Shown piece by piece: positions 4,704 to 38,370 of a stretch of DNA of 64,000 nt (the stretch's first letter is position 1; each line of letters opens with the position of its first letter). The notes under the pieces were generated by a model. The model ran no database searches. It was not told the DNA's origin and saw only the letters and a list, made by a program, of their open reading frames with translations. The translations under genes were made by a program, and so were the position numbers. Origin of the DNA: Acidisoma sp. PAMC 29798 (lineage in GTDB: Bacteria; Pseudomonadota; Alphaproteobacteria; Acetobacterales; Acetobacteraceae); assembly GCF_030252425.1 (NCBI RefSeq), contig NZ_CP126994.1, positions 4,273,001-4,337,000 of the forward strand, written 5' to 3'.

Positions 4704-4848
4704 TGCGAGGGGTGCCGTCACTGCTCGCCAGGCGTACCCAACGATTTCTTGATTTGAGAGAGCCAAGGCGGGAGGAGCGTCGGTTCCGGCGCGAGTGCCC
4801 GCGCGGAGGCATCAGCGTGAGTTCCATCCTCACCGCGCCAGTCGTCAA

Positions 4849-5278: not shown

Positions 5279-5354
5279 TAGGCACACGTTACCCTTTTTG
5301 TGATCGGTAGCTATCAGGCTAGCTGAGCGCTCGGCTTCACACTTGCGCCGTCGG

Positions 5355-5875: not shown

Positions 5876-5878
5876 GGA

Positions 5879-6561: not shown

Positions 6562-6596
6562 GGACTCGCCTTTCTCATGCGTGTTCCGGTGCAATT

Positions 6597-7073
6597 TCAG
6601 TCGTCACAAGACATTGTTCGATCGCGCCCACGCGGCTGGAACAGCGGCAGCAGGTCCGTTGATTGGACACCATAGGGCGGCCACTTCACGGGAGTCGATG
6701 CGGCTGCGGCGGGCAGTCCGGGACCGAAACCAGTCGCCCTGATGACCTGTGGTCCCGACATCGTCCGTCTCTCCATCCAGGGCAGCGCGGCCGTGTAAAC
6801 CGCGAACAGCGCCTCCGCAGGCGTCGCCTCGAACCACTCGTTGCGGACGCACATTTTGCCGAGTAGCCGGTGCGCTTGGTGCTCGACGTCAGGGGCATCG
6901 CCGAACGGCACAGCAATCGCCACGTGGATCATGAGGTCGAGCGGTGACGCGGTCTGGAGCGTTGCGAGTCTGGCACGCGGGTTGGTCGCCATACCGATCT
7001 TCTGAAGCCCGCTGACGGGGCCGATCACATAGACATAGCGGATAGCGGGAGGCAGTCGGGCGTTACGCTTCAA
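6597..7073 (-). CDS. GIY-YIG-like (MUG113/T5orf172) nuclease-fold protein
   Basis: 158 aa. Residues ~12-45 read YVYVIGPVSGLQKIGMATNP then RARLATLQTASP, the Y-V-Y-x-I...KIG...R...LQ...P signature of the T5orf172/MUG113 branch of the GIY-YIG superfamily. Further conserved-type residues follow in VEHQAHRLLGKMCVRNEWFE (E, H and the NEWF motif). These proteins occur in phages and mobile elements; endonuclease activity is inferred from the fold. Second gene of the operon, starting inside the stop of the XRE gene (4-bp overlap). Confidence 0.75.
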   Translation of the reverse strand: MKRNARLPPAIRYVYVIGPVSGLQKIGMATNPRARLATLQTASPLDLMIHVAIAVPFGDAPDVEHQAHRLLGKMCVRNEWFEATPAEALFAVYTAALPWMERRTMSGPQVIRATGFGPGLPAAAASTPVKWPPYGVQSTDLLPLFQPRGRDRTMSCDD

Positions 7074-20124: not shown

Positions 20125-20148
20125 CAGCGTCCAAAAGTTTCCACTTTC

Positions 20149-20937
20149 TCAGCTGTTTTTCGGCTGTTTCTTTCGCTGCTTGAAGCGGAACGAGTCGTTG
20201 CCGGTCTCCAGGATGTCGCAGTGGTGGGTGACCCGGTCCAGCAGTGCGGTTGTCATCTTTGGGTCACCGAAGACACCCACCCATTCGGCAAAAGAGAGGT
20301 TGGTTGTGAAGATCAGCGAGGTCTTTTCGTAGAGCTGGCTGATCAGGTGGAACAGCAGAGCGCCGCCCGAGGCTGGGAACGGCAGATAGCCGAGTTCGTC
20401 GATGATCACGGCGTCGGTCTGCACCAGCTGACGGGCGAGATTGCCGGCGCGTCCCTGCTGTTTCTCCCGCTCCAGCTGGTTGACCAGGTCGACGGCGTTG
20501 TAGAAGCGCACGCGTTTGCCCTGGTGGATGGCAGCGACACCCAGCGCCGTCGCGATGTGGGTCTTTCCGGTGCCGGTGCCGCCGACCAGGATCAGATTGT
20601 GCGCGGTTGCCATGAAGGCGGCGGTCGCCAGTTGTTCGATTTGCGCCTGCGGCAATGGGGTTTCGGCCCATTCGATACCGGTCAGGTCGCGATGAACAGG
20701 GAAGCGCGCGGCCTTGAGCTGGTAGCGCAGGCTGCGGACCTGGCGATCGGCAAGCTCGGCTTCGATTAACCGGTCCAGCCATGCCTCGGGCTGCATCGGC
20801 CGACGTGGGCCTTCCGCCAGCAACTCGCTCCAGGCGGTAGCCATGCCGTAGAGATGTAGCGCACTGAGTTGGCCGAGGCGGTCTACGCCGGAAGCAACCA
20901 AGGCAAGAGGCTTAACAGCAAGATCAGTGGATGACAT
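20149..20937 (-). CDS. istB: IS21 transposition helper ATPase IstB (copy 1)
   Basis: 262 aa. AAA+/DnaC-like ATPase that assembles on target DNA and delivers it to the IstA transposase. N-terminal helical DNA-binding region ([17 protein letters not shown]), Walker [15 protein letters not shown] at ~118, Walker [13 protein letters not shown], sensor region [12 protein letters not shown] and the arginine-rich end. Length normal for the family. Starts 14 bp inside the end of istA, the usual coupling. Confidence 0.95.
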
Positions 20938-22423
20938 GGCTCACCTCGCGCAGGTGGTCGTAGCGGCCGCAATCGGCGCGCGGCTCGGTTTGGAGCTTCA
21001 GCATGTCGGGCACGTTCAGCATGGCGGGCGTGCTGGGTGCGACAAGCCGGCGCATCTCGTTCAGCACCACGGCGGCAGTGATGACATTGCCGTCCAATAC
21101 CAATTCGCAGGCGACCTGCAGCGGCTCCAGGCCGAACTCGCGTGCCATCATCAGCAACTCGACAAAAGCACGATCGCCTTTCGGCTGCTTGAGAATGCGG
21201 TCGCGCACCAGCCGGATGGGCGTGGGCAAATCCCATTGCTGGAACGGCACACCGTTGCGCAATGCGCCAGGTTTGCGTTCCAGGATCGGCAGATAATGCC
21301 ACGGATCGCAGATCAGTTGATCACGCCCATACCGCCGGGCATGGTCGGCGACGATTGCGCCGTCGGCCACGATGCGCACGCCGGCGGCTGAGGTGCGCAC
21401 CGAGACAGCGCGGCCGGCGAAGGCGGCTGGCACGCTGTATCGGTTGCGATCCACCGCCACCAGGCAGGTGCTCGACACGCGCAGCATATGTTCGACATAG
21501 CCGTCGAATGTCGCGGTGATCTGCCGCAGCGACGGCTGCTCCTCGGCAAAGCACGCGGCAATCGAGCGCTCCGGCGTTACCGGGTGTTTGCGCTGCGCCA
21601 GCTCCCGGCAGCGCGTGGCCAGCCAGACGTTCAGCGCATCGAAGCTGATAAAACGGGCCAGCGGCGTGAATAGCCATTCGCGGATGTTGCCAACCTGGTT
21701 CTCGACCTGCCCCTTCTCCCATCCAGAGGCGGGGGTACAGGCGACGGGCTCAAACAGATAGTGGTTGGCCAGCACCATGAAGCGCCGATTGAACTGCCGC
21801 TCCTTGCCGGTAAATATCGTCTCCACAACGGACTTGAGGTTGTCGTAGACCATGCGCTGGGGCACCCCGCCGAAGAAGGCGAAAGCGCGGTTATGCGCGT
21901 CGAAGACCATCTCCTGGGTCTCGCGTGGGTAGGCCACCACGAACATCTGCCGGCTGAAGGTCAGCCGGAAATGCGCAACCTTGATGGTCTGCATGACGCC
22001 GCCGAGTTCGACATGCTCATGGCTCCAGTCGAACTGGCACACCTCGCCGGGTGCGAAGGCCAGCGGGATAAAGGCGTGCGCCAGCGCCGGGCCCGACTTG
22101 TCCGCCTTCCAGCGCCGCACGAAACGTTGCACGCTGTCGTAGGCGCCGCGGTAGCCCTCCGCCTGCAAACCTTCGAATAGCCGCTGGGCCGTGCGGCGCT
22201 GGGCTTTCGGGAGAAGCCCTTCGGTCCGCAGCCACGTCTCCAGCGTCTGCTGGACCGCTCCCAGCATCGGCGTTGGCTGCCGGCTGCGCTGGTAGGACGG
22301 CTGGGCTTCGGTCCGGCAATGCCGGCGGACGGTCTGCCGGCACAGCTTAAGGTCCCGCGCGATCGAGCTGATGCTCTCGTGGCGGACCAGATGGCGGCGC
22401 CGGATCTCGGCAATCAAGTCCAT
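20924..22423 (-). CDS. istA: IS21 transposase IstA (copy 1)
   Basis: 499 aa from the ATG at 22423 ([19 protein letters not shown]); the frame is open upstream into the IS end but that portion is terminal sequence. N-terminal HTH ([19 protein letters not shown]), then a DDE integrase core with Asp in [12 protein letters not shown], Asp in [12 protein letters not shown] and Glu in [15 protein letters not shown], and a C-terminal beta domain. All catalytic residues intact, so probably active. Confidence 0.95.
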
Positions 22424-22536
22424 GAGCAGCACCCCAGATTCCCCAGCAAAAATGCCGGATGATCGCACGACCAGGGTGGAAACTATTGGACGCTGTTTAC
22501 CCCTGGAATCTGGGAACTTTTGCACGCTGTTTTACA

Positions 22537-22706
22537 CCCTCTTTACCCACGAGCGCCTGAAACCGCGCCTCCGCGTGCCGTGCCGAGCCTTCTGGATCGG
22601 AATGCTGTCGCTGCCGGGCATTGTCGATTAGCTCCGCCAGGTTCGTCGGAATGCCATTGCCGCCCGGGTTCTCCAGACGGATCAGTCGTCGATTGAACGC
22701 GCTCAT
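22537..22706 (-). pseudogene. Small phage-type protein, 3' end replaced by IS21
   Basis: Starts MSAFNRRLIRLENPGGNGIP (ATG at 22706, overlapping the previous stop) and runs through LIDNARQRQHSDPEGSARHA before entering the IS; the fused frame stops inside the IS at 22497. The remaining ~57 residues look like an intact N-terminus. Family unknown. It follows the DUF5681 gene with a 4-bp overlap, so it was part of that operon. Confidence 0.6.
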
Positions 22707-23149
22707 CGGTTTGCCCTTTCCTCAATGGCGGCAAGACGGCGCTCAATATCGACCGTCTCTATTGCCCGCCGCTTCGTGTCATAGATACCAGCCAACGTGG
22801 CCGCCTCCTCAGGGGTGAGCTCGCCGGCGGCCGCAGCCGCGATGACGCTGCCCAGCGCTTCGGTGATGTCCACGGCGCGATTTAGCGTGGGCACCTCAAA
22901 CCGGACAGGCCTGCCTCGGCGCAGCGGTGCAATACGCTCCAGCACCAGCTTCAACGCCACGGTGTCGCCCATCATCGCGAGGTCGATGGCTTTCTGGGTG
23001 ATCGCCTCCGCCTGACCGTCCAGCAGCGCCTCGATGGCCACCGTCGTCTTGTTGCGCGTGCCCGGTGTCCGACCCTTCGGGTTGCCGGACTGGCCTGGCG
23101 CGAACAGGTGCGCGGGTCGTTGTGCTTTGTGGTCTGCATCTTCAGTCAT
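22703..23149 (-). CDS. DUF5681 domain protein
   Basis: 148 aa. N-terminal DUF5681 motif FAPGQSGNPKGRTPGTRNKT, then a helical region (VAIEALLDGQAEAITQKAID, VALKLVLERIAPLRRGRP) with an ITEALGSVIAAAAAGELTPE segment. DUF5681 proteins occur in prophages and mobile elements near terminase or primase genes and are thought to bind DNA or ribosomal partners; no activity is established. Last intact gene of the primase operon before the IS. Confidence 0.82.
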   Translation of the reverse strand: MTEDADHKAQRPAHLFAPGQSGNPKGRTPGTRNKTTVAIEALLDGQAEAITQKAIDLAMMGDTVALKLVLERIAPLRRGRPVRFEVPTLNRAVDITEALGSVIAAAAAGELTPEEAATLAGIYDTKRRAIETVDIERRLAAIEERANR

Positions 23150-23170
23150 GCGTTAAATTTCCTTTGGGAA

Positions 23171-23638
23171 TCATGATGCGGTCAGCGTCGCGTGTGCGCG
23201 CGCACGGAACAGGGGGTTTGGCCCTTGTAAGTTTTCCGTCTTCCCCGGTTTCCAGGGCTCTTCGCACTCTTCAACCAGAGAGACGGTTTTGCGCCATGTT
23301 GCGCCGTCCCTGCGCCGTGGGAGAATGATGGGATGGCGTTGCGCCATCATCATTTTCCCCTTAGGGCCGGATGATGGCGCACGCGCTCCATCCTGCGCCA
23401 TGTTTGCGCCATAACTCGGGGTCTCGGAGGTAATCCGCTTCGGCTTGCATGCGTCGCAGCGCCGACGCGGATAGGAGAAGTCCATGCGCGTGTAGAGATT
23501 GAACGGGCGCTGGCATTCCATGCAGTCCGACTCCCAGTCGGTGACCTGACTTGGACGCCCATGGCCATTCCGGAGATACCGCGTGCCTCGCCACCTATAG
23601 GCTTGGCCTTTGTATTGCCGGTCTTGCGGGCTACTCAT
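23171..23638 (-). CDS. Zinc-finger-like hypothetical protein
   Basis: 155 aa from the ATG at 23638, which overlaps the ATPase stop; the frame is also open upstream. Basic N-terminus (QYKGQAYRWRGTRYLRNG) and a four-Cys finger: SDCMECQRPFNLYTRMDFSY followed by RRRCDACKPKR. The remainder is basic and low-complexity with KGKMMMAQRHP. Likely binds nucleic acid alongside the primase and ATPase. Family not recognised. Confidence 0.6.
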   Translation of the reverse strand: MSSPQDRQYKGQAYRWRGTRYLRNGHGRPSQVTDWESDCMECQRPFNLYTRMDFSYPRRRCDACKPKRITSETPSYGANMAQDGARAPSSGPKGKMMMAQRHPIILPRRRDGATWRKTVSLVEECEEPWKPGKTENLQGPNPLFRARAHATLTAS

Positions 23639-24830
23639 CACCATCATCGCCCTTCCAATCAGCGTTGGTCGGCCGCCCATCTGAGGTTCGAAGACCGGTG
23701 ACGATCTTCCGGGTTCGAGCGTCCTTAAATTGCGCGACCTCAAAGCCGCCGGCGATCAGGTCTTGCATCAGCTTCCGCTGCCCATCGCCAGTTGTGATGC
23801 CGTGCGAGACGAGCAGATGCTTCACAGACCTCGGCTTAGGAGACAGGGTTGGCGACCAGGGCCCATCGGGGCTTCCGCGAGCGATCCCAGACTCGATGGC
23901 GGCACGGGCCTCGCTGGTTACGGTGTCCTTCGGGACCGACCAAGGCAGGAGCGTCGGCGCCCAGTCACCATTTGCCAGCTCTATCCCTATCCGCTCGAAC
24001 CATTCCGCGTCTCCCAATGGGGCATATGACTGCTTCCCATCATCAAGCCGGACATAATTCCGACGCGTATCTGGACTGATTCCAAGCGCTGCCGCTTCTT
24101 CCTCGTTCATCCCGGTCAGGGTCATGCCGACCCTGATGGCGCCGATGATAGAGGACGCGCCGCGCGCGCTATCGAGGTCGCCGGGAGCCGCTATCCCCTT
24201 ACGCAGATGATGCACGATGAGCATCGCGACCCCGCATTCTTTCGCCAACGTCCGCAGCTCCGCCAGCACCTGCTTCAAGTCGCCGTTGCTGTTTTCGTCC
24301 ACCCCCGTCGTCAGCTCCACAAGCGGATCAAGGATCACCACGCTGGCGCCTGTCTCCTCGATAAGGAGCCTCAAGTCCGCCAAGGCCGCTGTCCTGGTAA
24401 TCTTGCCCGTCTCAGCGTTTCGTTCGAAGAGAGAGGCGATCTTCTCCGGACCCGCTCGCGTCAACCAGCCGTCGAGGTCGATTGCCCGCTTTCCGAACTG
24501 CCTGATCAGCGACGAAATGCGCCGTCGCTGCTCGTCCGCGTCATCCTCCGCGTTGATAATCAGGACACGCCGCCGCGGGCTTTCCGCGCCGGGAATTGGT
24601 TTGAACTTGCCGACAGGCTCACCGAGAGCAAGTGCGATCGACCACAACAGCGCCAGCAATGACTTTCCGGCTGCGGGCGACCCCACAACGAGCGACAAGG
24701 TGTTCCGCATAAGATAGCCGGGCACGACCCACGGGCGCGGCGGGATCGCGGCTTCGTCCCAGGCATCATCCCGATCGACCCAGAAGGCTGGCCCTTCAGC
24801 GACGACGGTGTAACCGAATGGACTATCCAC
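23631..24830 (-). CDS. RepA-like AAA ATPase (replication helicase type)
   Basis: 399 aa from a GTG overlapping the primase stop (GTGGATAG). RecA-like fold: Walker A VVGSPAAGKSLLALLWSIAL at ~40, Walker B VVILDPLVEL with the following Thr/Asp, and VAMLIVHHLRKG then the DSARGASSIIGAIRVGMTLT motif, as in plasmid RepA/KaiC-like hexameric helicases. A winged-helix-like C-terminus (SVKHLLVSHGITTGDGQRKL) follows. Works with the Toprim primase; the pair is a self-replication module of mobile elements. Confidence 0.85.
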   Translation of the reverse strand: MDSPFGYTVVAEGPAFWVDRDDAWDEAAIPPRPWVVPGYLMRNTLSLVVGSPAAGKSLLALLWSIALALGEPVGKFKPIPGAESPRRRVLIINAEDDADEQRRRISSLIRQFGKRAIDLDGWLTRAGPEKIASLFERNAETGKITRTAALADLRLLIEETGASVVILDPLVELTTGVDENSNGDLKQVLAELRTLAKECGVAMLIVHHLRKGIAAPGDLDSARGASSIIGAIRVGMTLTGMNEEEAAALGISPDTRRNYVRLDDGKQSYAPLGDAEWFERIGIELANGDWAPTLLPWSVPKDTVTSEARAAIESGIARGSPDGPWSPTLSPKPRSVKHLLVSHGITTGDGQRKLMQDLIAGGFEVAQFKDARTRKIVTGLRTSDGRPTNADWKGDDGDE

Positions 24831-25719
24831 GCCGCTCGGCCAACACATCGGCGAAGTCTGTGCCCTCGAGATCCGGCGTCGCGATCTCGACTGAACGACC
24901 CTCGGCCCTCCAACGTCGGGCGGCGGCCCGCGCGGCATCCTGGCCTGGCCAAACCTTTCTGCCATGCAGAATGTGAGGCAAATCATTATCCGCCGCGATC
25001 GTGATGCGCCGGATCGCGACGGGCAGCATCAACCCCTTGGCCAGATTACCCGCCGAGATTGCTGCCCACGCCGGAAGCCCCAGGAGGAGGCCCGCAGCGG
25101 CCGATGTCTCGACCCCCTCCCCAATGACGATAGCACCGTCGATCGGCTCCTGTAGGCGCACCGCAGCGCCCCACAAGACACCAAGACCGGCTTTCGCAGG
25201 TGTGACGCCTGCCTTGGCGGATCCGTCGCGGGTCAGATAGATACGCTGCAGACCGACTGGCTCCCCATCGACGCTCCGAGCGAGCGCCACGAGTGCCGCC
25301 AGGCTGCCTCCCTCGGGATGCTTAAGATCATCGTGGAACCGGAGATGCGGACTCCCGGCAACATGCTCGATTCCTCGCCCCCTCAGATAGGCCACGCCTG
25401 GTTCTGAAGTGCGATCTGTGAGCGGACGGCAGCGGGCCCAAACCGTACGCGCATATTCAGCCCGATCATCATTGGACCGGGCGGAAGAGGCCAACGGCAC
25501 CTTCGGTTCATAGGTGCCGCCCGTGACCCTCGCCGCCTCCTTCAGCAGCGTGCCCCGGTCGCAGCCGTTGGAGCAGAAAAGACGCGCGTTACCCTCCGAG
25601 CTCGCCTGGACCGAAAGCGACCCGCTGTAGCTGCAACAGAAGCAGTCGCCGCGCCACGACTTCGGGTATTTCTTGAGGCGGAGACGATCAGCCAGATCGC
25701 GGGCCATGATGGCGGTCAT
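24823..25719 (-). CDS. Toprim-domain primase
   Basis: 298 aa. N-terminal zinc-binding segment (WRGDCFCCSYSGSL and LFCSNGCDRGTLL), a middle DUF7146-like region (PGVAYLRGRGIEHVAGSPHL) and a C-terminal Toprim: VIGEGVETSAAAGLLLGLPA (catalytic Glu) and RRITIAADNDLPH (DxD-like). Together with the downstream RepA-like ATPase it should prime replication of the excised element. Start overlaps the previous gene by 4 bp. Confidence 0.85.
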   Translation of the reverse strand: MTAIMARDLADRLRLKKYPKSWRGDCFCCSYSGSLSVQASSEGNARLFCSNGCDRGTLLKEAARVTGGTYEPKVPLASSARSNDDRAEYARTVWARCRPLTDRTSEPGVAYLRGRGIEHVAGSPHLRFHDDLKHPEGGSLAALVALARSVDGEPVGLQRIYLTRDGSAKAGVTPAKAGLGVLWGAAVRLQEPIDGAIVIGEGVETSAAAGLLLGLPAWAAISAGNLAKGLMLPVAIRRITIAADNDLPHILHGRKVWPGQDAARAAARRWRAEGRSVEIATPDLEGTDFADVLAERRG

Positions 25720-26183
25720 GAGGCCACCGCCTTTCGTGCGGCCGCATCCAATTCCGACGCCCTTGCCGCGTGCCGAAGAGCGTTCTGCTCTTCACGCTCC
25801 CTAAGGCAGTCGCCCACGCCTTCAAGGTGCCAATCCCGGAGCACTTCTATCTCGGACGCCGACAGCGTGACCCTGCGCATCATTGCACACCTGCCTGCAT
25901 TGCTTCGCGCAACCGGGCCCGACGTGCTGGCGTCCGCCATCGACCGAAACTTAAAGATCACCGCACGGCCCGCCCGGAATGCGACCGTGGCAAGACTGCA
26001 TCCCGTACGATCAGGCCAATTTACCCCCTCGTCATGGGTGAGTAGCGCCGACATGCCGGGCCGACTCAGCACATCCTCCAGCGATAGATGACCAGGCGAT
26101 AGCACAGCGATCGCGACTTCGTCGGCGGCATACACGATCGTGTTGATGCGCGCCGCAACGGGAACCTGGATACCGCCGCTCAT
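25716..26183 (-). CDS. Hypothetical protein of the primase operon
   Basis: 155 aa. N-terminal region with beta and helix alternation (MSGGIQVPVAARINTIVYAA, DEVAIAVLSPGHLSLEDVLS), a C-terminal helical part (TLSASEIEVLRDWHLEGVGD then CLREREEQNALRHAARASEL). No cysteine clusters or membrane segments. Overlaps both neighbours by 4 bp. Family unknown; position suggests a replication or regulatory role. Confidence 0.6.
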   Translation of the reverse strand: MSGGIQVPVAARINTIVYAADEVAIAVLSPGHLSLEDVLSRPGMSALLTHDEGVNWPDRTGCSLATVAFRAGRAVIFKFRSMADASTSGPVARSNAGRCAMMRRVTLSASEIEVLRDWHLEGVGDCLREREEQNALRHAARASELDAAARKAVAS

Positions 26184-26419
26184 CGGCCGCTTCCCGGAAC
26201 CGAGTGGAGAGATCTCGGAGGAAAACGATCGCCTCCGGTCGCGCGCAGCATCTCCGGATTCAGCCGTCGCTGATATTCATTAAGACGACCGAGGATCGCG
26301 GGCATGCCGCCTATCGCCGCGGCGACCTCCGCCAAGAACTCCGCAGTCGCACGCGGGCCGAGAGTATGCAGGTGTTCCGCGCCTCGCTGGAGGCGCATTT
26401 GGTCAAGATTATTCAACAT
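26180..26419 (-). CDS. Small protein, first gene of primase operon, promoter displaced by IS21
   Basis: 79 aa, ATG at 26419 with GGAGAT upstream (MLNNLDQMRLQRGAEHLHTL, ATAEFLAEVAAAIGGMPAIL). Helical; resembles small accessory proteins that precede primase genes in alphaproteobacterial prophages. IS copy 2 ends only 14 bp upstream of the start, so the native promoter is gone or replaced by outward transcription from the IS. Likely first gene of a seven-gene minus-strand unit down to the IS at 22536. Confidence 0.65.
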   Translation of the reverse strand: MLNNLDQMRLQRGAEHLHTLGPRATAEFLAEVAAAIGGMPAILGRLNEYQRRLNPEMLRATGGDRFPPRSLHSVPGSGR

Positions 26420-26546
26420 CGAGATCTCCGATGTGTAAAACAGCGTGCAAAAGTTCCCAGATTCCAGGGGTAAACAGCGTCCAATAGTTTCCACCCTGGT
26501 CGTGCGATCATCCGGCATTTTTGCTGGGGAATCTGGGGTGCTGCTC

Positions 26547-28046
26547 ATGGACTTGATTGCCGAGATCCGGCGCCGCCATCTGGTCCGCCACGAGAGCATC
26601 AGCTCGATCGCGCGGGACCTTAAGCTGTGCCGGCAGACCGTCCGCCGGCATTGCCGGACCGAAGCCCAGCCGTCCTACCAGCGCAGCCGGCAGCCAACGC
26701 CGATGCTGGGAGCGGTCCAGCAGACGCTGGAGACGTGGCTGCGGACCGAAGGGCTTCTCCCGAAAGCCCAGCGCCGCACGGCCCAGCGGCTATTCGAAGG
26801 TTTGCAGGCGGAGGGCTACCGCGGCGCCTACGACAGCGTGCAACGTTTCGTGCGGCGCTGGAAGGCGGACAAGTCGGGCCCGGCGCTGGCGCACGCCTTT
26901 ATCCCGCTGGCCTTCGCACCCGGCGAGGTGTGCCAGTTCGACTGGAGCCATGAGCATGTCGAACTCGGCGGCGTCATGCAGACCATCAAGGTTGCGCATT
27001 TCCGGCTGACCTTCAGCCGGCAGATGTTCGTGGTGGCCTACCCACGCGAGACCCAGGAGATGGTCTTCGACGCGCATAACCGCGCTTTCGCCTTCTTCGG
27101 CGGGGTGCCCCAGCGCATGGTCTACGACAACCTCAAGTCCGTTGTGGAGACGATATTTACCGGCAAGGAGCGGCAGTTCAATCGGCGCTTCATGGTGCTG
27201 GCCAACCACTATCTGTTTGAGCCCGTCGCCTGTACCCCCGCCTCTGGATGGGAGAAGGGGCAGGTCGAGAACCAGGTTGGCAACATCCGCGAATGGCTAT
27301 TCACGCCGCTGGCCCGTTTTATCAGCTTCGATGCGCTGAACGTCTGGCTGGCCACGCGCTGCCGGGAGCTGGCGCAGCGCAAACACCCGGTAACGCCGGA
27401 GCGCTCGATTGCCGCGTGCTTTGCCGAGGAGCAGCCGTCGCTGCGGCAGATCACCGCGACATTCGACGGCTATGTCGAACATATGCTGCGCGTGTCGAGC
27501 ACCTGCCTGGTGGCGGTGGATCGCAACCGATACAGCGTGCCAGCCGCCTTCGCCGGCCGCGCTGTCTCGGTGCGCACCTCAGCCGCCGGCGTGCGCATCG
27601 TGGCCGACGGCGCAATCGTCGCCGACCATGCCCGGCGGTATGGGCGTGATCAACTGATCTGCGATCCGTGGCATTATCTGCCGATCCTGGAACGCAAACC
27701 TGGCGCATTGCGCAACGGTGTGCCGTTCCAGCAATGGGATTTGCCCACGCCCATCCGGCTGGTGCGCGACCGCATTCTCAAGCAGCCGAAAGGCGATCGT
27801 GCTTTTGTCGAGTTGCTGATGATGGCACGCGAGTTCGGCCTGGAGCCGCTGCAGGTCGCCTGCGAATTGGTATTGGACGGCAATGTCATCACTGCCGCCG
27901 TGGTGCTGAACGAGATGCGCCGGCTTGTCGCACCCAGCACGCCCGCCATGCTGAACGTGCCCGACATGCTGAAGCTCCAAACCGAGCCGCGCGCCGATTG
28001 CGGCCGCTACGACCACCTGCGCGAGGTGAGCCATGTCATCCACTGA
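26547..28046 (+). CDS. istA: IS21 transposase IstA (copy 2)
   Basis: Translation identical to copy 1, with HTH, DDE residues and C-terminal domain intact; start ATG at 26547. Identity between copies implies very recent duplication. Confidence 0.95.
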
Positions 28047-28821
28047 TCTTGCTGTTAAGCCTCTTGCCTTGGTTGCTTCCGGCGTAGACCGCCTCGGCCA
28101 ACTCAGTGCGCTACATCTCTACGGCATGGCTACCGCCTGGAGCGAGTTGCTGGCGGAAGGCCCACGTCGGCCGATGCAGCCCGAGGCATGGCTGGACCGG
28201 TTAATCGAAGCCGAGCTTGCCGATCGCCAGGTCCGCAGCCTGCGCTACCAGCTCAAGGCCGCGCGCTTCCCTGTTCATCGCGACCTGACCGGTATCGAAT
28301 GGGCCGAAACCCCATTGCCGCAGGCGCAAATCGAACAACTGGCGACCGCCGCCTTCATGGCAACCGCGCACAATCTGATCCTGGTCGGCGGCACCGGCAC
28401 CGGAAAGACCCACATCGCGACGGCGCTGGGTGTCGCTGCCATCCACCAGGGCAAACGCGTGCGCTTCTACAACGCCGTCGACCTGGTCAACCAGCTGGAG
28501 CGGGAGAAACAGCAGGGACGCGCCGGCAATCTCGCCCGTCAGCTGGTGCAGACCGACGCCGTGATCATCGACGAACTCGGCTATCTGCCGTTCCCAGCCT
28601 CGGGCGGCGCTCTGCTGTTCCACCTGATCAGCCAGCTCTACGAAAAGACCTCGCTGATCTTCACAACCAACCTCTCTTTTGCCGAATGGGTGGGTGTCTT
28701 CGGTGACCCAAAGATGACAACCGCACTGCTGGACCGGGTCACCCACCACTGCGACATCCTGGAGACCGGCAACGACTCGTTCCGCTTCAAGCAGCGAAAG
28801 AAACAGCCGAAAAACAGCTGA
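28033..28821 (+). CDS. istB: IS21 transposition helper ATPase IstB (copy 2)
   Basis: Translation identical to copy 1 (262 aa, Walker [15 protein letters not shown]). Overlaps istA by 14 bp. Confidence 0.95.
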
Positions 28822-28876
28822 GAAAGTGGAAACTTTTGGACGCTGTTGCCTGGTAACTATTCAACGCTGATTGACA

Positions 28877-29306
28877 CCCTTGCAGTGCGCCCGTTTCCAT
28901 TTTTGAATGGATGGATCCAGTTTATCCGCCATAGACAAAACGATGCGATTTCAATCGGAGGAGTGCTTGTCCACCTTGCCCCAAGCTCCTTGGTGAACTC
29001 ATTCATACAGTCCTTAACATCCTCCCAGTGAGGAGGTTGATGAACCGTGACACCTCCTTTGGAAACAACTACTTCTCCGTCTCTGTAGACACCTGGAGTT
29101 TTAAGTAATAGTAAAGTCCCAGTTCGATGGAGTTCGCAGAGCTCTGCCTCAGAAGGGTGAGAGTTTAGTAGGGCACTATTTAGACGTATATGATAAGTAA
29201 CGAATTTTATCAGGGCTTCGATGAAATTGACCTGACTGGAATAGTTTAATACTTCGATTTCATGTGCTTCGGGTCCATTGATCAGCTCCCAATTATCGTC
29301 AAACAT
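28877..29306 (-). pseudogene. Fic-domain protein truncated by IS21
   Basis: ATG at 29306 with GAGGTG upstream (MFDDNWELINGPEAHEIEVL). The Fic core is present through LCELHRTGTLLLLKTPGVYR, the flap VVVSKGGVTVHQPPHWEDVK and the active-site loop IHPFKNGNGRTAR, after which the IS begins; a fused frame adds VSISVE from the IS end and stops at 28857. The catalytic His, Phe and GNGR are kept, but the residue that usually is Asp/Glu (HPFx[D/E]GNGR) is Asn, so Mg-dependent AMP transfer is doubtful even in the intact protein. The C-terminal helix bundle is lost. The region is visibly AT-richer than its surroundings, pointing to recent transfer. Confidence 0.85.
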
Positions 29307-29859: not shown

Positions 29860-31077
29860 TCACCTCTCGCCATATTCGCCAGCCGCGCACCACTTCCCCC
29901 ACGCCTCCATCATCTCTCTCCGCTTCTCGAACAGGTCGCCCCGCCGATAGGCTGCCTCGACCTTCGACCCGATGACATGGGCGAGGGCCATCTCGGCGAC
30001 CTCGCCGGGATAATCCGTCGCCTCAGCGATCCAATCCCGGAAGGTTGACCGGAACCCATGAACGGTTGCGGCCTTAGCGCCCAACGCGGTGTGGACCGCT
30101 TTCAGTAGCCCCACGTCGGACATAGGCCTGCCGATCTTCGCGCCAGGGAAGACGAACGCATCCGCTGGCGGCTTGCTCTCCATCGGCCACTGCTTCCGCA
30201 GGATGGTAAGGGCCGGTTCCGACAGGGGCACCCGGTGCTCGTTCTTGGCCTTCATTCGCTCGGCTGGGACAATCCAGAGCTTCCGCTCGAGATCGAACTC
30301 CCGCCACCGGGCCCCGCGGACTTCCCCTGACCGTGCGGCGGTCAGGCAGGCAAACCGTACCGCCCGAGCTGCCATCCCCTCTGCCTTGGCGAGCGCCGTC
30401 ATGACCGTCGCAACCTGGCGCCAGTCCACGGCGCGGTGATGCTCGACCCGGGCGCCCAGGGCTCGGGGTGCAAGGATGTTGGCGAGGTGCCCCTTCCAGC
30501 GGGCGGGGTTCTCGCCCTTCAGCCATTTGTGAGCGTGCGCGTAATCCAGGATCCGCTCGAGCCGGCCGCGGACCCTATCGGCGGTCTCTTTCTTCTCGGC
30601 CCAGATAGGCCGCAGAATCAGCAGGATATCCTCGGTGGTGATGCTGCCGATCGGCTTATTGCACACGACAGGATAGGCAAACCGTGTCAGGGAGCTACGC
30701 CAGACAGGCGCCGCCCGCCGATCGGTCCAGCCTGGCTCCCTGTCCTTGATATAGGCTTCGGTGACCGCCGCGAAGGTCATGCCGGTGGCGCGCTTCGCTT
30801 CTTTCCGTCGTTTTTCGTTCTCTATAGGGTCGATCTCTTCGTCCAGCAGCTGCCGGGCTGTTCGAGCTTTATCCCTGGCCTTGGCGAGGGTGACGTCCAG
30901 ATAAGAGCCCAGGCCCATTTCGCGTCGCTTGCCTGTCACTGGACTTTTGTAGCGGAATGTCCATCGCTTTGCCTTGCCTTGAACGGTTAGCCACAGATTC
31001 CCGCCGTCGCCCCAGCTTCCATCTTTGAGCGATTCGACCTCACGCACCGTCATCTGGTTCGGTCCAAGTCGACTCAC
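29860..31077 (-). CDS. P4-type tyrosine integrase of the island
   Basis: 405 aa. N-terminal DUF4102 arm-binding domain (VESLKDGSWGDGGNLWLTVQ), SAM-like core-binding domain (FAAVTEAYIKDREPGWTDRR), then the catalytic domain with Arg in CLTAARSGEVRGARW, Lys in MKAKNEHRVPL, HxxR in VHGFRSTFRDW, His in EMALAHVIGSKVE and Tyr in AAYRRGDLFEKR. All catalytic residues are present, so active excision or integration is possible. It lies 160 bp from attR. No excisionase gene is obvious; the small XRE or MarR proteins could serve. Confidence 0.94.
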   Translation of the reverse strand: MSRLGPNQMTVREVESLKDGSWGDGGNLWLTVQGKAKRWTFRYKSPVTGKRREMGLGSYLDVTLAKARDKARTARQLLDEEIDPIENEKRRKEAKRATGMTFAAVTEAYIKDREPGWTDRRAAPVWRSSLTRFAYPVVCNKPIGSITTEDILLILRPIWAEKKETADRVRGRLERILDYAHAHKWLKGENPARWKGHLANILAPRALGARVEHHRAVDWRQVATVMTALAKAEGMAARAVRFACLTAARSGEVRGARWREFDLERKLWIVPAERMKAKNEHRVPLSEPALTILRKQWPMESKPPADAFVFPGAKIGRPMSDVGLLKAVHTALGAKAATVHGFRSTFRDWIAEATDYPGEVAEMALAHVIGSKVEAAYRRGDLFEKRREMMEAWGKWCAAGEYGER

Positions 31078-32605: not shown

Positions 32606-32633
32606 AAAAAAAAGGCGGCGCCGAAGCACCGCC
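32606..32633 (-). terminator. Rho-independent terminator, minus strand
   Basis: On the minus strand GGCGGTGC-TTCG-GCGCCGCC forms an 8-bp stem with one G-U pair and a stable TTCG tetraloop, followed by eight T. It lies ~220 bp past the stop of the heme peroxidase and would end the oxidase-peroxidase transcript, which would then run antisense through the 39-aa ORF at 32649. Confidence 0.85.
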
Positions 32634-32854: not shown

Positions 32855-34492
32855 CTAGGGCTTGATCTGGAATTTGAGCGCAGCCGCAATCAGTTCCCGA
32901 AGGCCGAAGACGCCGTTCTGCATGTATGCGGGTGTCCAGAGAGGATTGAGACTCACGTAGGAACTCGAATCGGCGAGGAGCAGGCCCACAAAAGTTTCGG
33001 CAACGATGCGACCGCCAACTGGCCCGAGTTGCCGGGTCTTGATTGTCTGAGGGCCGTCGAGTGTCTTGACGACCACGTCGATCTCCACCGTTTCGGCAAG
33101 GCAGTAGGCCCATAACGGACAATTGTCGGCGAAGGCGCCTCCCGCAAACGTAGCGAAAGAGCCCGCCGGGACAGGAACATCCCCGTCTCCGGCTGCGGCG
33201 CCGATGAATTTCCCGATCACGATCTGAGCGTCGGTGAGGGGAATAAGTCCCATCGCCCTTGCCACATCCTGCCCGCTGGGCAAACGCATGCGCCAGCCGC
33301 GCTCCAGATTGCGCAGGGCAAGCACGCTCGGGTCGATCGCGACCGAGGCCGGCAAGACGCCGAGCGGGCTTACCAATGAGGTATCGATCTTGTAAGCCAG
33401 TTGCAGGCGATTTCGATTTCCGGCAATCGCGGGGTCGGGGTTGTCGATCGGCCCGCCGTAAGCCATTGGCTCCAGATCGATGAAGCGCCGCCAGTCTATC
33501 GCCCAAGGGGAAAGGGGGGCTTGGAATCCCCGAAGATCATGCGCGTGCTCTCCATGTTTGAAGATCGGCAGAAGCGTATCGTCTTTTGCCCTGTGACCCT
33601 CGGGAAGCAAAGGCACGCCATCGTTCAAACGATATCCGGGTCTCACCATGGAATGGCCGAAGCGGTAGGCGGCGGCAGAAAACTCCAAAGGCATGAACGC
33701 CGCATCGCGAAAACGGAAGAAGCGCAGGTTCCGTTCCTCGATCACCAAAGCGCCGTCGGCGGCCTTCGGGAGCACATCGTCTAGCACGCCAGCTGAGACA
33801 ATCGTCGGGAGGAAGTCGTGCAGAAGCACCCACTGGTAATGGAACCTGACCGCTTGTTGGACTTGTGAAAAACTCCATGTGGGGTTTTCGTCAACGATGC
33901 GGTTGTGGAAGCGCTGCATCAGACCTTGAAACTGTGAAACGATCACGTTCTCGTCGTTGCGGGGATCGCCGATCAACGCCCGCGCCGGCGTCTCGTTATT
34001 ACGCTGGAGACCAAGTGCTCCGCTATTGACTTGAGGCGCGCCAGTCAGCTCCGGCCCAAGCACGAAACTCTTACCCTTGATGTCATAGATGTACGGCTGA
34101 TCGTCGGGTCCGCGCCCATACAGATTGTCGAGATCAAACTGTGGGGTGCGAAAATCGACCAGGGCGTCTGGATCGTTCTGTTTCTGAAGGCTGCTGGACG
34201 GATCAAAGGTCAAATCGTGATCGATGAACTGGCCGAAATAGGTAAAGGCGGAGGGGATGCCGCTTTCCTCACTGTCAGGTCCGTCCTTCGGATCCGCCTT
34301 ATCCGGCTGCGAGGTCATCGCCTTGGCAAGCGCTTTGAGAGCGTCCACGGATGCGACGTCGCTGGCGCCGAAATCAGCGGGCGGCAAGGCCCGGAAGATA
34401 CGGCCAAATGGCCCCGCGAAGAACTTTGAGCTGCGGGAAAGATTAGCGCCGCGAACCCCACCATGAGGCCGTGTCGTTGAAAGCACTTTCAT
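32855..34492 (-). CDS. Animal-type heme peroxidase
   Basis: 545 aa from the ATG at 34492 (GGAGAG upstream). Myeloperoxidase/cyclooxygenase superfamily: distal-heme motif FTYFGQFIDHDLTFDP with the Asp-His pair (His ~92) that in mammalian enzymes carries a heme ester and the distal His; LMQRFHNRIVDENPTW with the catalytic Arg; proximal His (~280) in YRFGHSMVRPGYRLN. No signal peptide, so cytoplasmic or released by other means. Uses hydrogen peroxide to oxidise halide, thiocyanate or organic substrates. It begins 72 bp after the stop of the copper oxidase gene on the same strand, and that oxidase is expected to supply hydrogen peroxide. Confidence 0.88.
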   Translation of the reverse strand: MKVLSTTRPHGGVRGANLSRSSKFFAGPFGRIFRALPPADFGASDVASVDALKALAKAMTSQPDKADPKDGPDSEESGIPSAFTYFGQFIDHDLTFDPSSSLQKQNDPDALVDFRTPQFDLDNLYGRGPDDQPYIYDIKGKSFVLGPELTGAPQVNSGALGLQRNNETPARALIGDPRNDENVIVSQFQGLMQRFHNRIVDENPTWSFSQVQQAVRFHYQWVLLHDFLPTIVSAGVLDDVLPKAADGALVIEERNLRFFRFRDAAFMPLEFSAAAYRFGHSMVRPGYRLNDGVPLLPEGHRAKDDTLLPIFKHGEHAHDLRGFQAPLSPWAIDWRRFIDLEPMAYGGPIDNPDPAIAGNRNRLQLAYKIDTSLVSPLGVLPASVAIDPSVLALRNLERGWRMRLPSGQDVARAMGLIPLTDAQIVIGKFIGAAAGDGDVPVPAGSFATFAGGAFADNCPLWAYCLAETVEIDVVVKTLDGPQTIKTRQLGPVGGRIVAETFVGLLLADSSSYVSLNPLWTPAYMQNGVFGLRELIAAALKFQIKP

Positions 34493-34563
34493 CGAACTCT
34501 CCTGTCTGTCGGTGAATAACATTGCCCGGTCTGCACTTGCGGGCCGTGGCGACCAGTTTTGTT

Positions 34564-37500
34564 TCAGCGGATCTCAAAGTCGCGTACATGCAACAGCCAT
34601 TCGCCCTTCACGCGGTCCAGCGGGCCCGTCACCCGCATGAGCGTGGCGCTGACGAGAGAAGCGATGAGCCGTTCAAAGGCGGCGTGCTCCATCGGCGTGG
34701 CCTCACGCGCTTGCTGCACCAACCGGTCGAACTGGATTTTGTTCGTGCCGGCCAACGGCAGAAGCTTGACGGCCGATGACAGCAGCGGCCCGGTAAGCAC
34801 CAAACCTTCGGCCTGCTGTTGGACAAGCCCAGTGATTGATACTTCAACGCCCCGAAAGTCGTAGCTTCCATTGGCCGATTCTGCGATTTGCGCCGCCCAA
34901 CGATCGATGTCGGGCAGACTGTCGCTCTCGAGGTAGACGTCCGCCGTCGAATCCTCGGCATTGGCAATCGGGCGAACAGCGGTGACGCCGTCGAGCGTAA
35001 CGAGTGCCTGATAAGCCCCGCCCCAACACGCACCGAGGCCGTAGGGACATTTAGAGGTGAGGCCGACTGCGACTTGCGTGCCGCTGGCGGTCGCACGAAT
35101 ATGCTTGTCCACCTCTTCCAAAGTGACGGCCGGTTTCGCCGGGGCGGCCTTCTGCGTAGATCTAATCAGCAAGGCCGCAATGTGCAGGATCCACGCGACC
35201 GAAGGCACGCCTTTTCGGTTAAGCACGAAGAGCATGTAATAGCCTGGCGGGCAGTCGTGCGGCTGTGCCGGTGCGGTGACGCGCAACCCCCCGGCTGCCA
35301 CTGTGAAAGCCAGGATATTGATGCGCTGGTTCATATTGTTGGTATGCGTGACTGAGGCGAGACGGATCAGGCTGACCTTGCCGATATCCTCCGGTACAGC
35401 GACCGAGATGTCGAACGCCGCGCCATAGGCAATTTCCTTCGGTGCGGCAGAGATTTCGGGGCGCGGTCCGCGAAACAGATAAGGCGGCTTGAAGACTTGT
35501 CCGTCGCGATGCGTGTCCTGGGGCGGGTTCGGTTCCGCATTGACAGCGAATTCACCTCCGCCGGCGCTCAGTACTGTGGCATCCGGCAACAACACCGCCG
35601 TTGCGTGATAGCAGCGGTCCACCGCTTCCTCTGCGAGGAGAGTCCAGCTTTCTGTGGTAGGGTCCCACAGCTCCGCGACATGCACCGGGCCGCCAACCGT
35701 AAGATCGCTGAATCCGGGTCCCTGCGACCCGCCGGTGACGAGAACCGTGCCGTCAGGCAGTAAGGTCGCATTGTGCTGGCGCCGCGCGAAATGCATCGGA
35801 TGCACCGTTCGCCAAGCGGGCGCGTCTGCCGTTAGATCGATGACCTCGACGGCCGACGATGGTGTTTGCGGCTGCGTCGGATTATTGCCGCCGCCGATAT
35901 AGACGATCTTCCCGGTGTCATACATGACCGAGGGCGCGTAATCGCGCCGGGCATTGTCGCGAAGTCCGCCATCACCTTCGAGCAAGCTCCATGTCCCCGT
36001 CACCGGGTCGAGAAAGAAGCTCCGCGCGGCCGGCCCGGACATGAAGATGCGCCCGTCTGGCGCGACATGCAGGCAAGGAAAGAGATCGATTGGACTCGCA
36101 CTCTGGGGTGTGGCCCCGTCCCCCGGGAATGGATCGAAATTTTGCCACGTCGTTCCGTCCCATACTTGAGGTGTCGGGTCATTCTGGGTTTGCTTGCCAT
36201 CTGTGGTGCCGAAGCTGCCGGACAGCACGACGGCCCGGCCATCGGCCAGTGTCAGCGCGGTGGGATACCAGCGCCCGTTCGTCACGGTCGGCAGCGCCTC
36301 CCACAGGTTGGTGTCGAAATGGTAGCGGCAAGCTTGGTTGATGCCGTAGCCATCCTTCAAGTGGCCGCCGATGACCAAAAGGGTACCGTCCGCCAGCATG
36401 GTGTGACCGGAGCAAAACAGGTTCACCGTGTCGCCGTTGGCACGTGTTGGTTGCGGCGTTGCGGCAGTCGCACCGGTCGCAGGCTCCCAAAGATGGGGCG
36501 TGCAGAAATGATCGTTCAACGTGCCCGTCACAGGTGAATCTCTGCGGCCCCAGAACAGCACCTTTCCGTTCGGCAGAAGATGCGCGTGGATCGCCGCATT
36601 CGGCATGTCGAACCTCTCGCCCCAGGCGCCGATCCGCTCCGGTGTCTGCGCACCGGATGGCAGGTCGGGACGTTCCGGCGCGGTATAGGTCGCTGACAAA
36701 CGGTAGCTCGGCCGCGTCCCCACCGCCGCCTGCGTGAGCGAAATCCGAAGCGCGTGGAAGCCGGTCGCGATCGTCGTCGTCGTCAGCGTCGCCTGCCCGG
36801 TGGCGGTCGCCAAAACCGATCCGTCCACACCCAGGATGTCGATGGTTGCGCGCGCAGTGGCGGCCAGATCGGGGATGGAGAGGTGGGTCTGCACGGGCGT
36901 TCCGGTAGCGCACCAGATGCGGCCGACCTGGAGCGCACGGGCGGCGTCGGCCGGCGGTAGATCGAGGTCTGCGGCGCCTTCAAAATCCTGCGTCACCGAC
37001 CGCGGCGTGACGACTGTGCTCGTCCCGCTGCCGTTGCGACTGTAGCACACGTAGCCACGCCCATCGGCATTGGGTGGAACCGTGATCATTGCCGTTCCGG
37101 TCGCAGTCGTGACGACGTCCGGGCCGTTGCCCGTATAGTCGTGCAGTTTCACATTTGGACCGAAGGTGGTTGCGACCTCTGCAGTATGCGGACTATTGGG
37201 ATCGTTGTTGAGGCCGACCAACAAACCAGGCGCGCCAAGCCGCTCATAGACGAAAAGATCGAAGGCCTTCCAGCGTGCTTCGGTGGTTCCGTTGGCGAGC
37301 TGCTCATGGATCCAGATCAGGTTGTCCAGCAGAGGCTGCAGCCCGTAGCAATCTGGATCGGTGCTGTAGTCGCGCCAATAGACGCACGGGTACCCTTCCG
37401 ATGTCATGATATAGGCATAGGCAAGCATCTTATTGACGACGATAGGATCGTCGAGATCGGTATCATGGTTCTCGACGAAGGTGACGGCATTGAGCGGCGC

Positions 37501-38370
37501 CAGGCCGACAAGCCCGGCTTTATCGAGCGTTGCCATATCGAAGGCACCGGGGTTGCGGCACATCCGCGCCAGCACAAAGCGTAGTGGAAAGTCGAAAGCG
37601 CTCGCTCGGCTCTTCATCCCGTCAGGATTGGACACCCAGACGTTGACTGCCGTCGGATCGCCATCAAAGAACTCGCCGACTGCGAACTTCCCCGCCATCG
37701 CTTTGGCACCGAGGAACGGGCTCAGGAAATCTGTCGATAGACCCTTCACATCGTCGAGCCTGTAGCCCTGCACATCGAGTGCCCGCGTCAGCCAATCGGC
37801 GGCATCGATCAGTCCGGTCGAGACATAGCCTGCGGGAATGGCGTTGATCGGGGCCAGTTCGCGCGCGAAGGGGAAATCATCCTTTGCCGGACCGCCGAGA
37901 TTGGGGTCGCGCGGCACATTGGGTACGAAATTGGGCGGGTTCTTCGTAAACCGGCCGAGGTCGCGCCGTCCCTCCGCCCCCTTGTAGCGAAAAATGAAAT
38001 TCCCAGGATCGCCAGATCGATGGTGCTCCACGAGATCGAGATAGACGTCGAGCCCATTCGCGCGGAGCGTCGCGACGCAGCGTTGCAGTGCTTCCCTGCT
38101 TCCGAAGCGCGTCGGCAGTGCGCCCATTTGGTCTTTCGACCCAATGTCGTAATCGTCGAAGGGACGATAGCCATCCGCGTCGGGTTTCGCGCCGCCGTTG
38201 GCCTTGAGCACCGGGGGCAACCACACAGCGGTGAAGCCCGCGCGACCCAATGCGTTCGCTCGTGTGGTAAGATGGTCCCACCACCAGAGTATCGTGGGGT
38301 CACCGTCAGACGGGGCCGGAACGGCTTGCGCCTCGGCCGTCTTGAAAAAGCCCTGTAGCAGCACGCCCAT
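34564..38370 (-). CDS. GH13 amylase fused to galactose/glyoxal-oxidase-like copper radical oxidase
   Basis: 1268 aa. Residues ~20-390: GH13 barrel with nucleophile Asp206 in GYRLDDVKG, acid/base Glu233 in KFAVGEFFDG and Asp303 in FVENHDTD, so the triad is intact. ~390-450: amylase beta domain; ~455-565: another beta-sandwich. ~570-1060: seven-bladed kelch-type AA5 domain with all radical-copper residues expected from galactose oxidase: Cys653 (LFCSGHT) and Tyr702 (RWYPT) for the thioether cofactor, Tyr921-His922 (RCYHATAVLLPD) and His1009 (VTHTNNMNQRI) as ligands, then the Ig-like cap. ~1080-1268: unrecognised domain. No signal peptide although most AA5 enzymes are secreted. The oxidase should convert an alcohol or aldehyde to an aldehyde or acid plus hydrogen peroxide; the GH13 part could release the sugar substrate. 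Operon with the heme peroxidase. Confidence 0.85.
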   Translation of the reverse strand: MGVLLQGFFKTAEAQAVPAPSDGDPTILWWWDHLTTRANALGRAGFTAVWLPPVLKANGGAKPDADGYRPFDDYDIGSKDQMGALPTRFGSREALQRCVATLRANGLDVYLDLVEHHRSGDPGNFIFRYKGAEGRRDLGRFTKNPPNFVPNVPRDPNLGGPAKDDFPFARELAPINAIPAGYVSTGLIDAADWLTRALDVQGYRLDDVKGLSTDFLSPFLGAKAMAGKFAVGEFFDGDPTAVNVWVSNPDGMKSRASAFDFPLRFVLARMCRNPGAFDMATLDKAGLVGLAPLNAVTFVENHDTDLDDPIVVNKMLAYAYIMTSEGYPCVYWRDYSTDPDCYGLQPLLDNLIWIHEQLANGTTEARWKAFDLFVYERLGAPGLLVGLNNDPNSPHTAEVATTFGPNVKLHDYTGNGPDVVTTATGTAMITVPPNADGRGYVCYSRNGSGTSTVVTPRSVTQDFEGAADLDLPPADAARALQVGRIWCATGTPVQTHLSIPDLAATARATIDILGVDGSVLATATGQATLTTTTIATGFHALRISLTQAAVGTRPSYRLSATYTAPERPDLPSGAQTPERIGAWGERFDMPNAAIHAHLLPNGKVLFWGRRDSPVTGTLNDHFCTPHLWEPATGATAATPQPTRANGDTVNLFCSGHTMLADGTLLVIGGHLKDGYGINQACRYHFDTNLWEALPTVTNGRWYPTALTLADGRAVVLSGSFGTTDGKQTQNDPTPQVWDGTTWQNFDPFPGDGATPQSASPIDLFPCLHVAPDGRIFMSGPAARSFFLDPVTGTWSLLEGDGGLRDNARRDYAPSVMYDTGKIVYIGGGNNPTQPQTPSSAVEVIDLTADAPAWRTVHPMHFARRQHNATLLPDGTVLVTGGSQGPGFSDLTVGGPVHVAELWDPTTESWTLLAEEAVDRCYHATAVLLPDATVLSAGGGEFAVNAEPNPPQDTHRDGQVFKPPYLFRGPRPEISAAPKEIAYGAAFDISVAVPEDIGKVSLIRLASVTHTNNMNQRINILAFTVAAGGLRVTAPAQPHDCPPGYYMLFVLNRKGVPSVAWILHIAALLIRSTQKAAPAKPAVTLEEVDKHIRATASGTQVAVGLTSKCPYGLGACWGGAYQALVTLDGVTAVRPIANAEDSTADVYLESDSLPDIDRWAAQIAESANGSYDFRGVEVSITGLVQQQAEGLVLTGPLLSSAVKLLPLAGTNKIQFDRLVQQAREATPMEHAAFERLIASLVSATLMRVTGPLDRVKGEWLLHVRDFEIR

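Follow-up and report, generated by a model that had tools for sequence, protein, structure and literature searches.

A GH13–AA5 fusion gene beside an animal-type heme peroxidase gene in Acidisoma: a candidate operon for coupled carbohydrate oxidation

What could a bacterium do with a protein in which an amylase-like barrel is fused to a copper radical oxidase, and with a heme peroxidase of the animal type encoded directly behind it? The question is raised by a 64,000-nucleotide stretch of the genome of Acidisoma sp. PAMC 29798 (contig NZ_CP126994.1; hereafter the window), in which a GH13–linker–AA5–C-terminal-domain fusion gene (34564..38370, minus strand; 1268 aa, ATG start, continuous open reading frame (ORF)) is followed by a gene for a peroxidase of family An_peroxidase (PF03098; 32855..34492, minus strand; 545 aa from the ATG at 34492). 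The answer which we favour, tentatively and with less than firm confidence, is that the two genes form an operon for non-secreted, coupled carbohydrate oxidation, in which the peroxidase both activates the oxidase and consumes hydrogen peroxide (H2O2).

The fusion was found to be a genuine gene. No internal stop was present across the 1268 aa, and the start position is fixed because an in-frame TGA sits five codons ahead of the ATG. In the NCBIfam scan, the alpha-amylase model PRK09441 covered residues 2-444 (4.7e-84) and the radical copper oxidase model GlxA residues 672-1064 (5e-61), each under its model's strict cut-off; in the Pfam scan, GO-like_E_set, kelch models and Glyoxal_oxid_N scored above cut-off, and Alpha-amylase and Alpha-amy_C_pro were narrowly over it. 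The GH13-AA5 module order was repeated in four other loci of full or near full length, at 53–60% identity to the window fusion, which rules out a chance ORF or a frame artefact; an assembly chimera is unlikely, since the fusion was seen in five assemblies (four of them metagenome-assembled genomes (MAGs), two with related isolate names), and a pseudogene is ruled out for fusion and peroxidase, as both genes are without a stop. The 1268-aa GH13–AA5 protein read from the DNA in the earlier note is thus real, with one unbroken frame, both domains recovered by profile scans and the fusion conserved in relatives, and the residues named there (Asp206, Glu233, Asp303, Cys653, Tyr702, Tyr921, His922 and His1009) are all present and invariant in the alignments. 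Two further domains (446-572 and 1085-1268) and the absence of a visible signal peptide go beyond what that note described. The domain search for further fusions likewise bore fruit. The four loci are L017 (the same as L002; MAG titled Acetobacteraceae, with the fusion truncated behind residue 1186, where the contig stops), L018 (MAG titled Acidobacteriaceae), and L019 and L020 (MAGs titled Verrucomicrobiota); with the window, five loci are filed under three bacterial phyla by their record titles.

The AA5 module, a copper radical oxidase propeller with a GO-like E-set, occupies residues 573–1068 (35167..36654, minus strand). Its copper-site letters (C653, Y702, Y921, H922, H1009) were identical in six of six aligned AA5 sequences, window included. 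A structure model of the linker–AA5–C-terminal part (mean pLDDT 70.5) had AA5 enzymes at the top of its PDB matches, the first 27 rows being AA5-type oxidases; against 5c86 and 5c92 the AA5 model reached a TM of 0.83 by target length, and structure alignments to known AA5 structures gave 22–27% identity. With the kelch propeller and E-set, the copper ligands Tyr/Tyr/His/His and the letter of the cross-linking Cys all present, the fusion belongs by sequence to AA5. Galactose is not the likely substrate, because Phe720 occupies the position corresponding to that of Trp290 in galactose oxidase (GalOx).

The GH13 module (residues 1–445; 37036..38370, minus strand) is joined to the oxidase by a beta-rich linker domain (residues 446–572; 36655..37035, minus strand), and stand-alone proteins related to the GH13 module also have a domain of this type behind their barrel. 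The catalytic D206, E233 and D303, of conserved sequence regions (CSR) II, III and IV, were identical in all five aligned fusions, window included, and the triad was kept in 14 of 14 aligned GH13 sequences; by sequence the fusion is thus a GH13 member too. CSR I reads VEHH in the window fusion, against V.NH in canonical relatives: its Asn is replaced by His in 5/5 fusions (H116 in the window), and the His that follows is replaced by Gln in three of the five, with the substrate-binding His of CSR I and CSR IV (H117 and H302) retained in the window. All seven aligned GH13 proteins that are paired with a BamB/PQQ-like propeller had NPD instead of NHD in CSR IV, their triad being intact. As judged from these letters, the barrel would hold, and probably cleave, an alpha-glucan or a related glucoside; its specificity may not be starch, because CSR I is altered, with H116 for Asn here and Gln in three relatives.

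These substitutions bear directly on an alternative that we regard as somewhat unlikely, in which the barrel is a binding or altered-specificity module, the peroxidase is a mere nearby scavenger of H2O2, and the AA5 domain works alone. In its favour are the change of Asn to His in every fusion, the Gln that follows in three of them, the NPD of the seven propeller-paired proteins, Sinorhizobium meliloti, which keeps the AA5 and C-terminal domains without GH13, and the verrucomicrobial fusion genomes, which are without a peroxidase match. This is countered by the unbroken conservation of the triad in the 14 sequences and by the GH13 being the best-conserved module of the fusion, at 67–73% identity between the window and the other four.

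The PF03098 match of the peroxidase was 5.4e-13 in the Pfam scan. The ORF opens at 34522, and the likely start is the ATG at 34492 after AGGAG; the Shine-Dalgarno-like CAGGAGAG lies in the intergenic stretch (34493..34563, minus strand), which leaves 71 bp from the fusion stop to this ATG on the same strand. Downstream of the peroxidase lies a hairpin that resembles an intrinsic terminator and has an uninterrupted T8 run (32614..32633, minus strand; read 32633-32614, eight pairs, seven of them G-C, the most G-C pairs of any terminator-like site listed). It is only the quality of this hairpin that supports a terminator, because the seven such sites found in the region about equal the 6.5 expected in shuffles. 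The peroxidase was accordingly kept as the next gene and likely operon partner in the window, as first proposed, given the common strand, the 71-bp gap and the terminator-like hairpin behind it.

The distal Gln/Asp/His, the Arg-x-x-Glu and the proximal His (Q88, D91, H92, R178, E181 and H280 in the window) were present in nine of nine aligned peroxidase rows, and a profile built from nine relatives could be aligned to chains of lactoperoxidase and myeloperoxidase on both the distal and the proximal side of the heme; we take these residues to have the roles of distal and proximal His, Arg, and the Asp and Glu of the heme ester links. By these features the protein is placed in the peroxidase-cyclooxygenase superfamily (PF03098). 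The family carries LPxGQ, versus LPDYN in lactoperoxidase, in a stretch where the alignment is weak (negative score), and in this same weakly aligned stretch the Asn partner of the proximal His, as in the chordate MPO/LPO family, was not found. The label of a myeloperoxidase-type enzyme, given in the earlier note, therefore stands for the heme-site residues and is too narrow where LPxGQ replaces LPDYN.

From the two genes the following mechanism can be proposed. The GH13 barrel, with its triad letters, would handle an alpha-glucan or related glucoside, and the fused AA5 domain, going by its copper-site letters, would oxidise the glucoside or a product of it at a primary alcohol or aldehyde, giving H2O2. 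By analogy with the fungal Perox–AlcOx tandem, the peroxidase could set the AA5 domain into its active radical state by a one-electron oxidation, and could also remove the H2O2 which that domain makes. The C-terminal domain with its invariant Cys pair might, speculatively, load copper into an AA5 domain folded in the cytoplasm. We infer the substrate, the copper loading and the coupling to the peroxidase. Copper radical oxidases are sought as biocatalysts, and a natural operon in a bacterium that supplies the peroxidase along with a substrate-handling domain fused to the oxidase, and perhaps a copper domain as well, would make a compact, self-sufficient oxidase; if so, one would have to ask how such a copper radical enzyme can mature without being exported, and the animal-type peroxidases of bacteria would gain a role that can be tested.

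The cellular location of the two proteins was assessed by eye from N-terminal hydrophobicity, not by SignalP. A signal peptide was not seen in the fusions, in the S. meliloti AA5 protein, in the AA5 and GH31 proteins of G026 (another Acetobacteraceae genome) or in the peroxidases of the window, L018 and G026. Among 31 AA5 genes with a readable start, a signal-like N-terminus was found in 24 (24 genes, 21 genomes), and seven were without it (window, L002 = L017, L018, L019, L020, L031 of S. meliloti, and L008 = G026), the rest being unclear. In the stand-alone enzyme of Tumebacillus (L030), the signal peptide ends where the first residues of the fusion begin. The fusion thus probably stays inside the cell.

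An intact peroxidase gene was near three of six signal-less AA5 loci, versus none of the 18 genomes whose AA5 has a signal-like N-terminus (p 0.01), some of these control AA5 contigs being short enough for a more distant peroxidase to escape the count; because the window had been chosen for having the pair, the test was repeated without it, giving two of five versus 0/18 (p 0.04). The fragment in S. meliloti was not counted as intact, and its inclusion would give 4/6 versus 0/18 (p 0.0014). The controls were G017, G108, G163, G165, G186, G209, G220, G227, G232, G282, G289, G299, G315, G316, G322, G343, G361 and G392. Excluded were genes with unclear N-termini (L011/L015, L014, L016, L039, L042/L093, L050/L100, L057, L058, L063, L066, L068, L069, L070), signal-bearing genes from genomes outside the PF03098 search (L064, L065, L067), L017, whose gene runs off its contig, and five loci that came late (L170–L172, L176 and L177).

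A wider association between peroxidase and AA5 was also obtained. Of 200 sampled Acetobacteraceae genomes, nine had AA5, and six of these nine also gave a peroxidase match, versus 25 of the 191 without AA5 (p 5e-4, with the window counted and relatedness not corrected). G026 carries AA5 and GH31 genes separated by a 32-bp gap (L135, 8007-15633), and a related peroxidase gene (50–56% identity) lies 3.5 kb from the AA5 gene and converges on the AA5-GH31 pair; the AA5 of G026 was placed far from the fusion clade in the AA5 tree, and by these sequences it is an independent glycosidase–AA5–peroxidase cluster in another lineage. Within the stretches fetched, an AA5 gene was found in three of 13 peroxidase loci (window, L018 and L135). 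In a PF03098 search of 33 genomes with AA5 or GH13, nine matched, none of them on a contig for which an AA5 match was listed, and in G466 a PF03098 gene lay 8.5 kb from a weak GH13 match. Conservation of the pair in relatives, the absence of which the earlier note had named as refuting, was borne out in part, by the window and L018 and not by the verrucomicrobial genomes; the peroxidase lies near the fusion in these two of the four readable fusion loci. The peroxidase–AA5 link is real but loose.

Several points weigh against the operon of coupled oxidation which we favour. We know of no cytoplasmic copper radical oxidase, and the substrate-site residues of the GH13 barrel are changed in the fusions. 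In L018, the peroxidase (80–81% identical to that of the window) is divergent and lies 2.6 kb from the fusion, with a propeller gene in between. The genomes of L019 and L020 gave no PF03098 match, and the peroxidase is not obligatory for the fusion for this reason; no match was found in the L017 assembly either, where the locus itself is cut by the contig end. S. meliloti L031 has only an N-terminal PF03098 fragment (profile 2-117 of 530) that runs into a multicopper-oxidase ORF (3636-6620). An AA5 gene was absent in ten of the 13 peroxidase loci (L123, L136-L140, L146, L147, L150, L151), some of the stretches being short, and the genome samples are small, related and partly made of fragmented MAGs. 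It was also observed that the L031 ORF, with the first fifth of a peroxidase and a multicopper oxidase, stands upstream of the gene for AA5 and the C-terminal domain.

An unlikely alternative is that fusion and peroxidase are accidental neighbours gathered on mobile DNA, with no functional coupling. The neighbourhood includes a gene for a tyrosine integrase (29860–31077) and two inverted, perfectly matching copies of a 2451-bp IS21 element; the genus showed no further fusion (0 of 4 other genomes), and an AA5 gene is missing near ten of the 13 peroxidase loci. Between the window and L018, identity was 80–81% for the peroxidase and 53% for the fusion, and the two may have travelled apart, because the peroxidase is the better conserved. 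Chance gathering is opposed by the same two families lying near each other, in a different order, in an acidobacterium, and by the third, independent AA5–glycosidase–peroxidase cluster of G026.

Beyond coupled oxidation in an operon, the C-terminal domain (residues 1085–1268; 34567..35118, minus strand) bears on where the copper might come from. It has no Pfam family, its Pfam search giving nothing better than E 0.08, and its C1108 and C1115, in the motif CPYGxxxCWGGA, were invariant in six of six sequences. The AlphaFold2 model of the domain (mean pLDDT 83.6, pTM 0.78) has a b-a-b-b-a-b order, with the last long strand running on into an OB-like barrel, and its Foldseek matches were weak, headed by OB-fold proteins (best E 5e-3, with no match reaching 0.001). 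An identity as an HMA copper chaperone was not established, the motif being C-x6-C and not CxxC; no HMA match was obtained at E up to 10 in five members of the domain, where the HMMER filters drop most weak hits, and no HMA chain was among the best 50 of 811 Foldseek rows. Homologues of the domain were found in one of 396 genomes of the phylum sample of G201, namely G201 itself, in one of 72,556 plasmid records and in no viral contigs. That the domain might supply copper to an AA5 enzyme which folds inside the cell and not outside it is speculative, a guess made because of the predicted topology and the invariant Cys pair. A bolder form of our reading, itself unlikely, would be a cytoplasmic copper radical oxidase–glycosidase fusion that receives copper from its own chaperone-like domain and is switched on by a peroxidase of the animal superfamily, a convergent intracellular counterpart of the fungal tandem; if true, a group of peroxidases of unexplained role in bacteria would gain its first function.

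The secreted antimicrobial system suggested earlier was not supported, because neither the fusion nor the peroxidase shows a signal peptide. Quite unlikely, too, is a released generator of antimicrobial oxidants, possible only by lysis or another signal-independent exit and acting in the manner of LodA with a peroxidase that makes stronger oxidants from H2O2: the H2O2-dependent antimicrobial activity of a LodA-type oxidase, described in the portion of that report consulted (PMC3948610), is a precedent, and a LodA-like gene (both LodA Pfam scores under cut-off) with a halogenase-like FAD gene (above cut-off) is next to the fusion at L019 10129-15045, but neither protein shows a signal peptide by eye, and the subset of neighbours scanned included no gene named for a toxin, for immunity or for secretion, secretion systems not being specifically searched for.

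For the distribution of the fusion, the contig scan, with six peptide patterns, reaches only close relatives. Genome searches scored two candidates per genome for the fusion counts in the window's family, the L018 family, the genus and the phylum, and three in the 200-genome sample. The fusion was found in at least two of 397 genomes of the window's family (Acetobacteraceae), at least one of 250 of the L018 family, two of 11 of the L020 family and at least one of 398 in the phylum sample (the window's own genome). No fusion was scored in the four other genomes of the genus, with the best two candidates per genome taken, and two genus-mate contigs with neighbouring transketolase-like genes end at or just short of the fusion site. 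In the AA5 tree of 40 rows, the AA5 domains of the five fusions and of S. meliloti plasmid pRRI128_2 (L031; AA5 and C-terminal domain, no GH13) formed one clade (100/100, the bootstrap not being fully settled), whose neighbour in the tree is a set of 17 rows, all but one from the L018 family. Loss of the GH13 module in S. meliloti is suggested because its AA5 groups with the window and L017 (100/98). In the GH13 tree, a 100/100 branch split the five fusion modules from the seven propeller-paired ones, and the fork uniting all five fusion modules was poorly supported.

A number of neighbouring features were noted in passing. In the window, the perfect inverted pair of the IS21-type element (20087-28883) flanks 3.9 kb with Toprim/DUF7146 and AAA_25 genes; the tyrosine integrase gene is 1.8 kb from the peroxidase gene, and the fusion operon may sit at the edge of an integrative element. 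The share of G or C at third codon positions was 0.72 in the fusion and 0.68 in the peroxidase, versus 0.73–0.82 in eight ORFs between 38793 and 52462, a contrast suggestive at most of acquisition. A 1627-aa ORF (15241-20124) carries the large polyvalent protein-associated domain LPD3, a frequent component of mobile elements. At L003, L023, L027, L028, L103, L104 and L105, a BamB/PQQ-like propeller gene comes after the GH13–linker gene or lies close to it, and at L018 such a propeller gene stands directly before the fusion. A CHAT–SIR2-like gene is just upstream of both verrucomicrobial fusions (L019 3056-5104 and L020 53-2101; 92% identical), and at L020 a kumamolisin-like peptidase gene with no obvious signal peptide comes after the fusion. 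The neighbour proteins at L018 8712-10064 and L031 13718-14752 are homologous (36% identity), with no Pfam match.

How, then, does the locus compare with known systems? Among the open-access papers that searches on this architecture listed, judged by titles and the openings of abstracts, none reported a GH13–AA5 fusion from bacteria or the pairing of a copper radical oxidase with an animal-type peroxidase in a bacterium. GalOx has its stacking Trp where the fusion has Phe720; the Pseudarthrobacter galactose oxidase (PDB 9g43, 9g8h) and the fungal alcohol oxidases (5c86, 5c92, 6ryv) have the AA5 fold and copper ligands in common with it. Stand-alone GH13–linker proteins (Tumebacillus, Armatimonadetes) and the GH13–linker/propeller pairs consist of the same GH13 and linker modules at 39–53% identity and, unlike the fusion, have no AA5 domain. 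The Streptomyces GlxA/CslA locus has a bacterial AA5 oxidase of the same copper-site family tied to glycan genes and faced by a conserved, convergently oriented endoglucanase gene (PMC3543389; PDB 4unm, 5lxz); in the text consulted, however, GlxA has a signal peptide, a cell-surface location and a separate gene, and a peroxidase partner is not mentioned (PMC3543389). The bacterial peroxicins of the peroxidase-cyclooxygenase superfamily, as far as the excerpt consulted describes them, are like the window peroxidase in being short animal-type heme peroxidases with an R-x-x-E motif, and they differ from it in the Asn partner of the proximal His, not seen in the window (LPxGQ); the role of Family 5 peroxidases was called completely unknown in this 2015 review (PMC4420034).

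The nearest likeness is the Perox–AlcOx tandem of Colletotrichum and Magnaporthe, where, as in the window, a copper radical oxidase gene stands beside a heme peroxidase gene (PMC9770985). According to the sections of that report consulted, copper radical oxidases need activation by a peroxidase for maximum in vitro activity, and activation of the oxidase by the partner peroxidase is reported for the fungal pair (PMC9770985). In the same sections, the fungal peroxidase is of class II, another superfamily than the animal-type PF03098 enzyme of the window; the fungal genes are head-to-head, whereas those of the window are on the same strand; both fungal proteins are predicted to be secreted, whereas signal peptides were not seen here; and the fungal oxidase is without the glycosidase fusion, whereas that of the window is fused to GH13 (PMC9770985). 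By analogy, the window pair may work like the fungal Perox–AlcOx tandem, but it is not a member of it.

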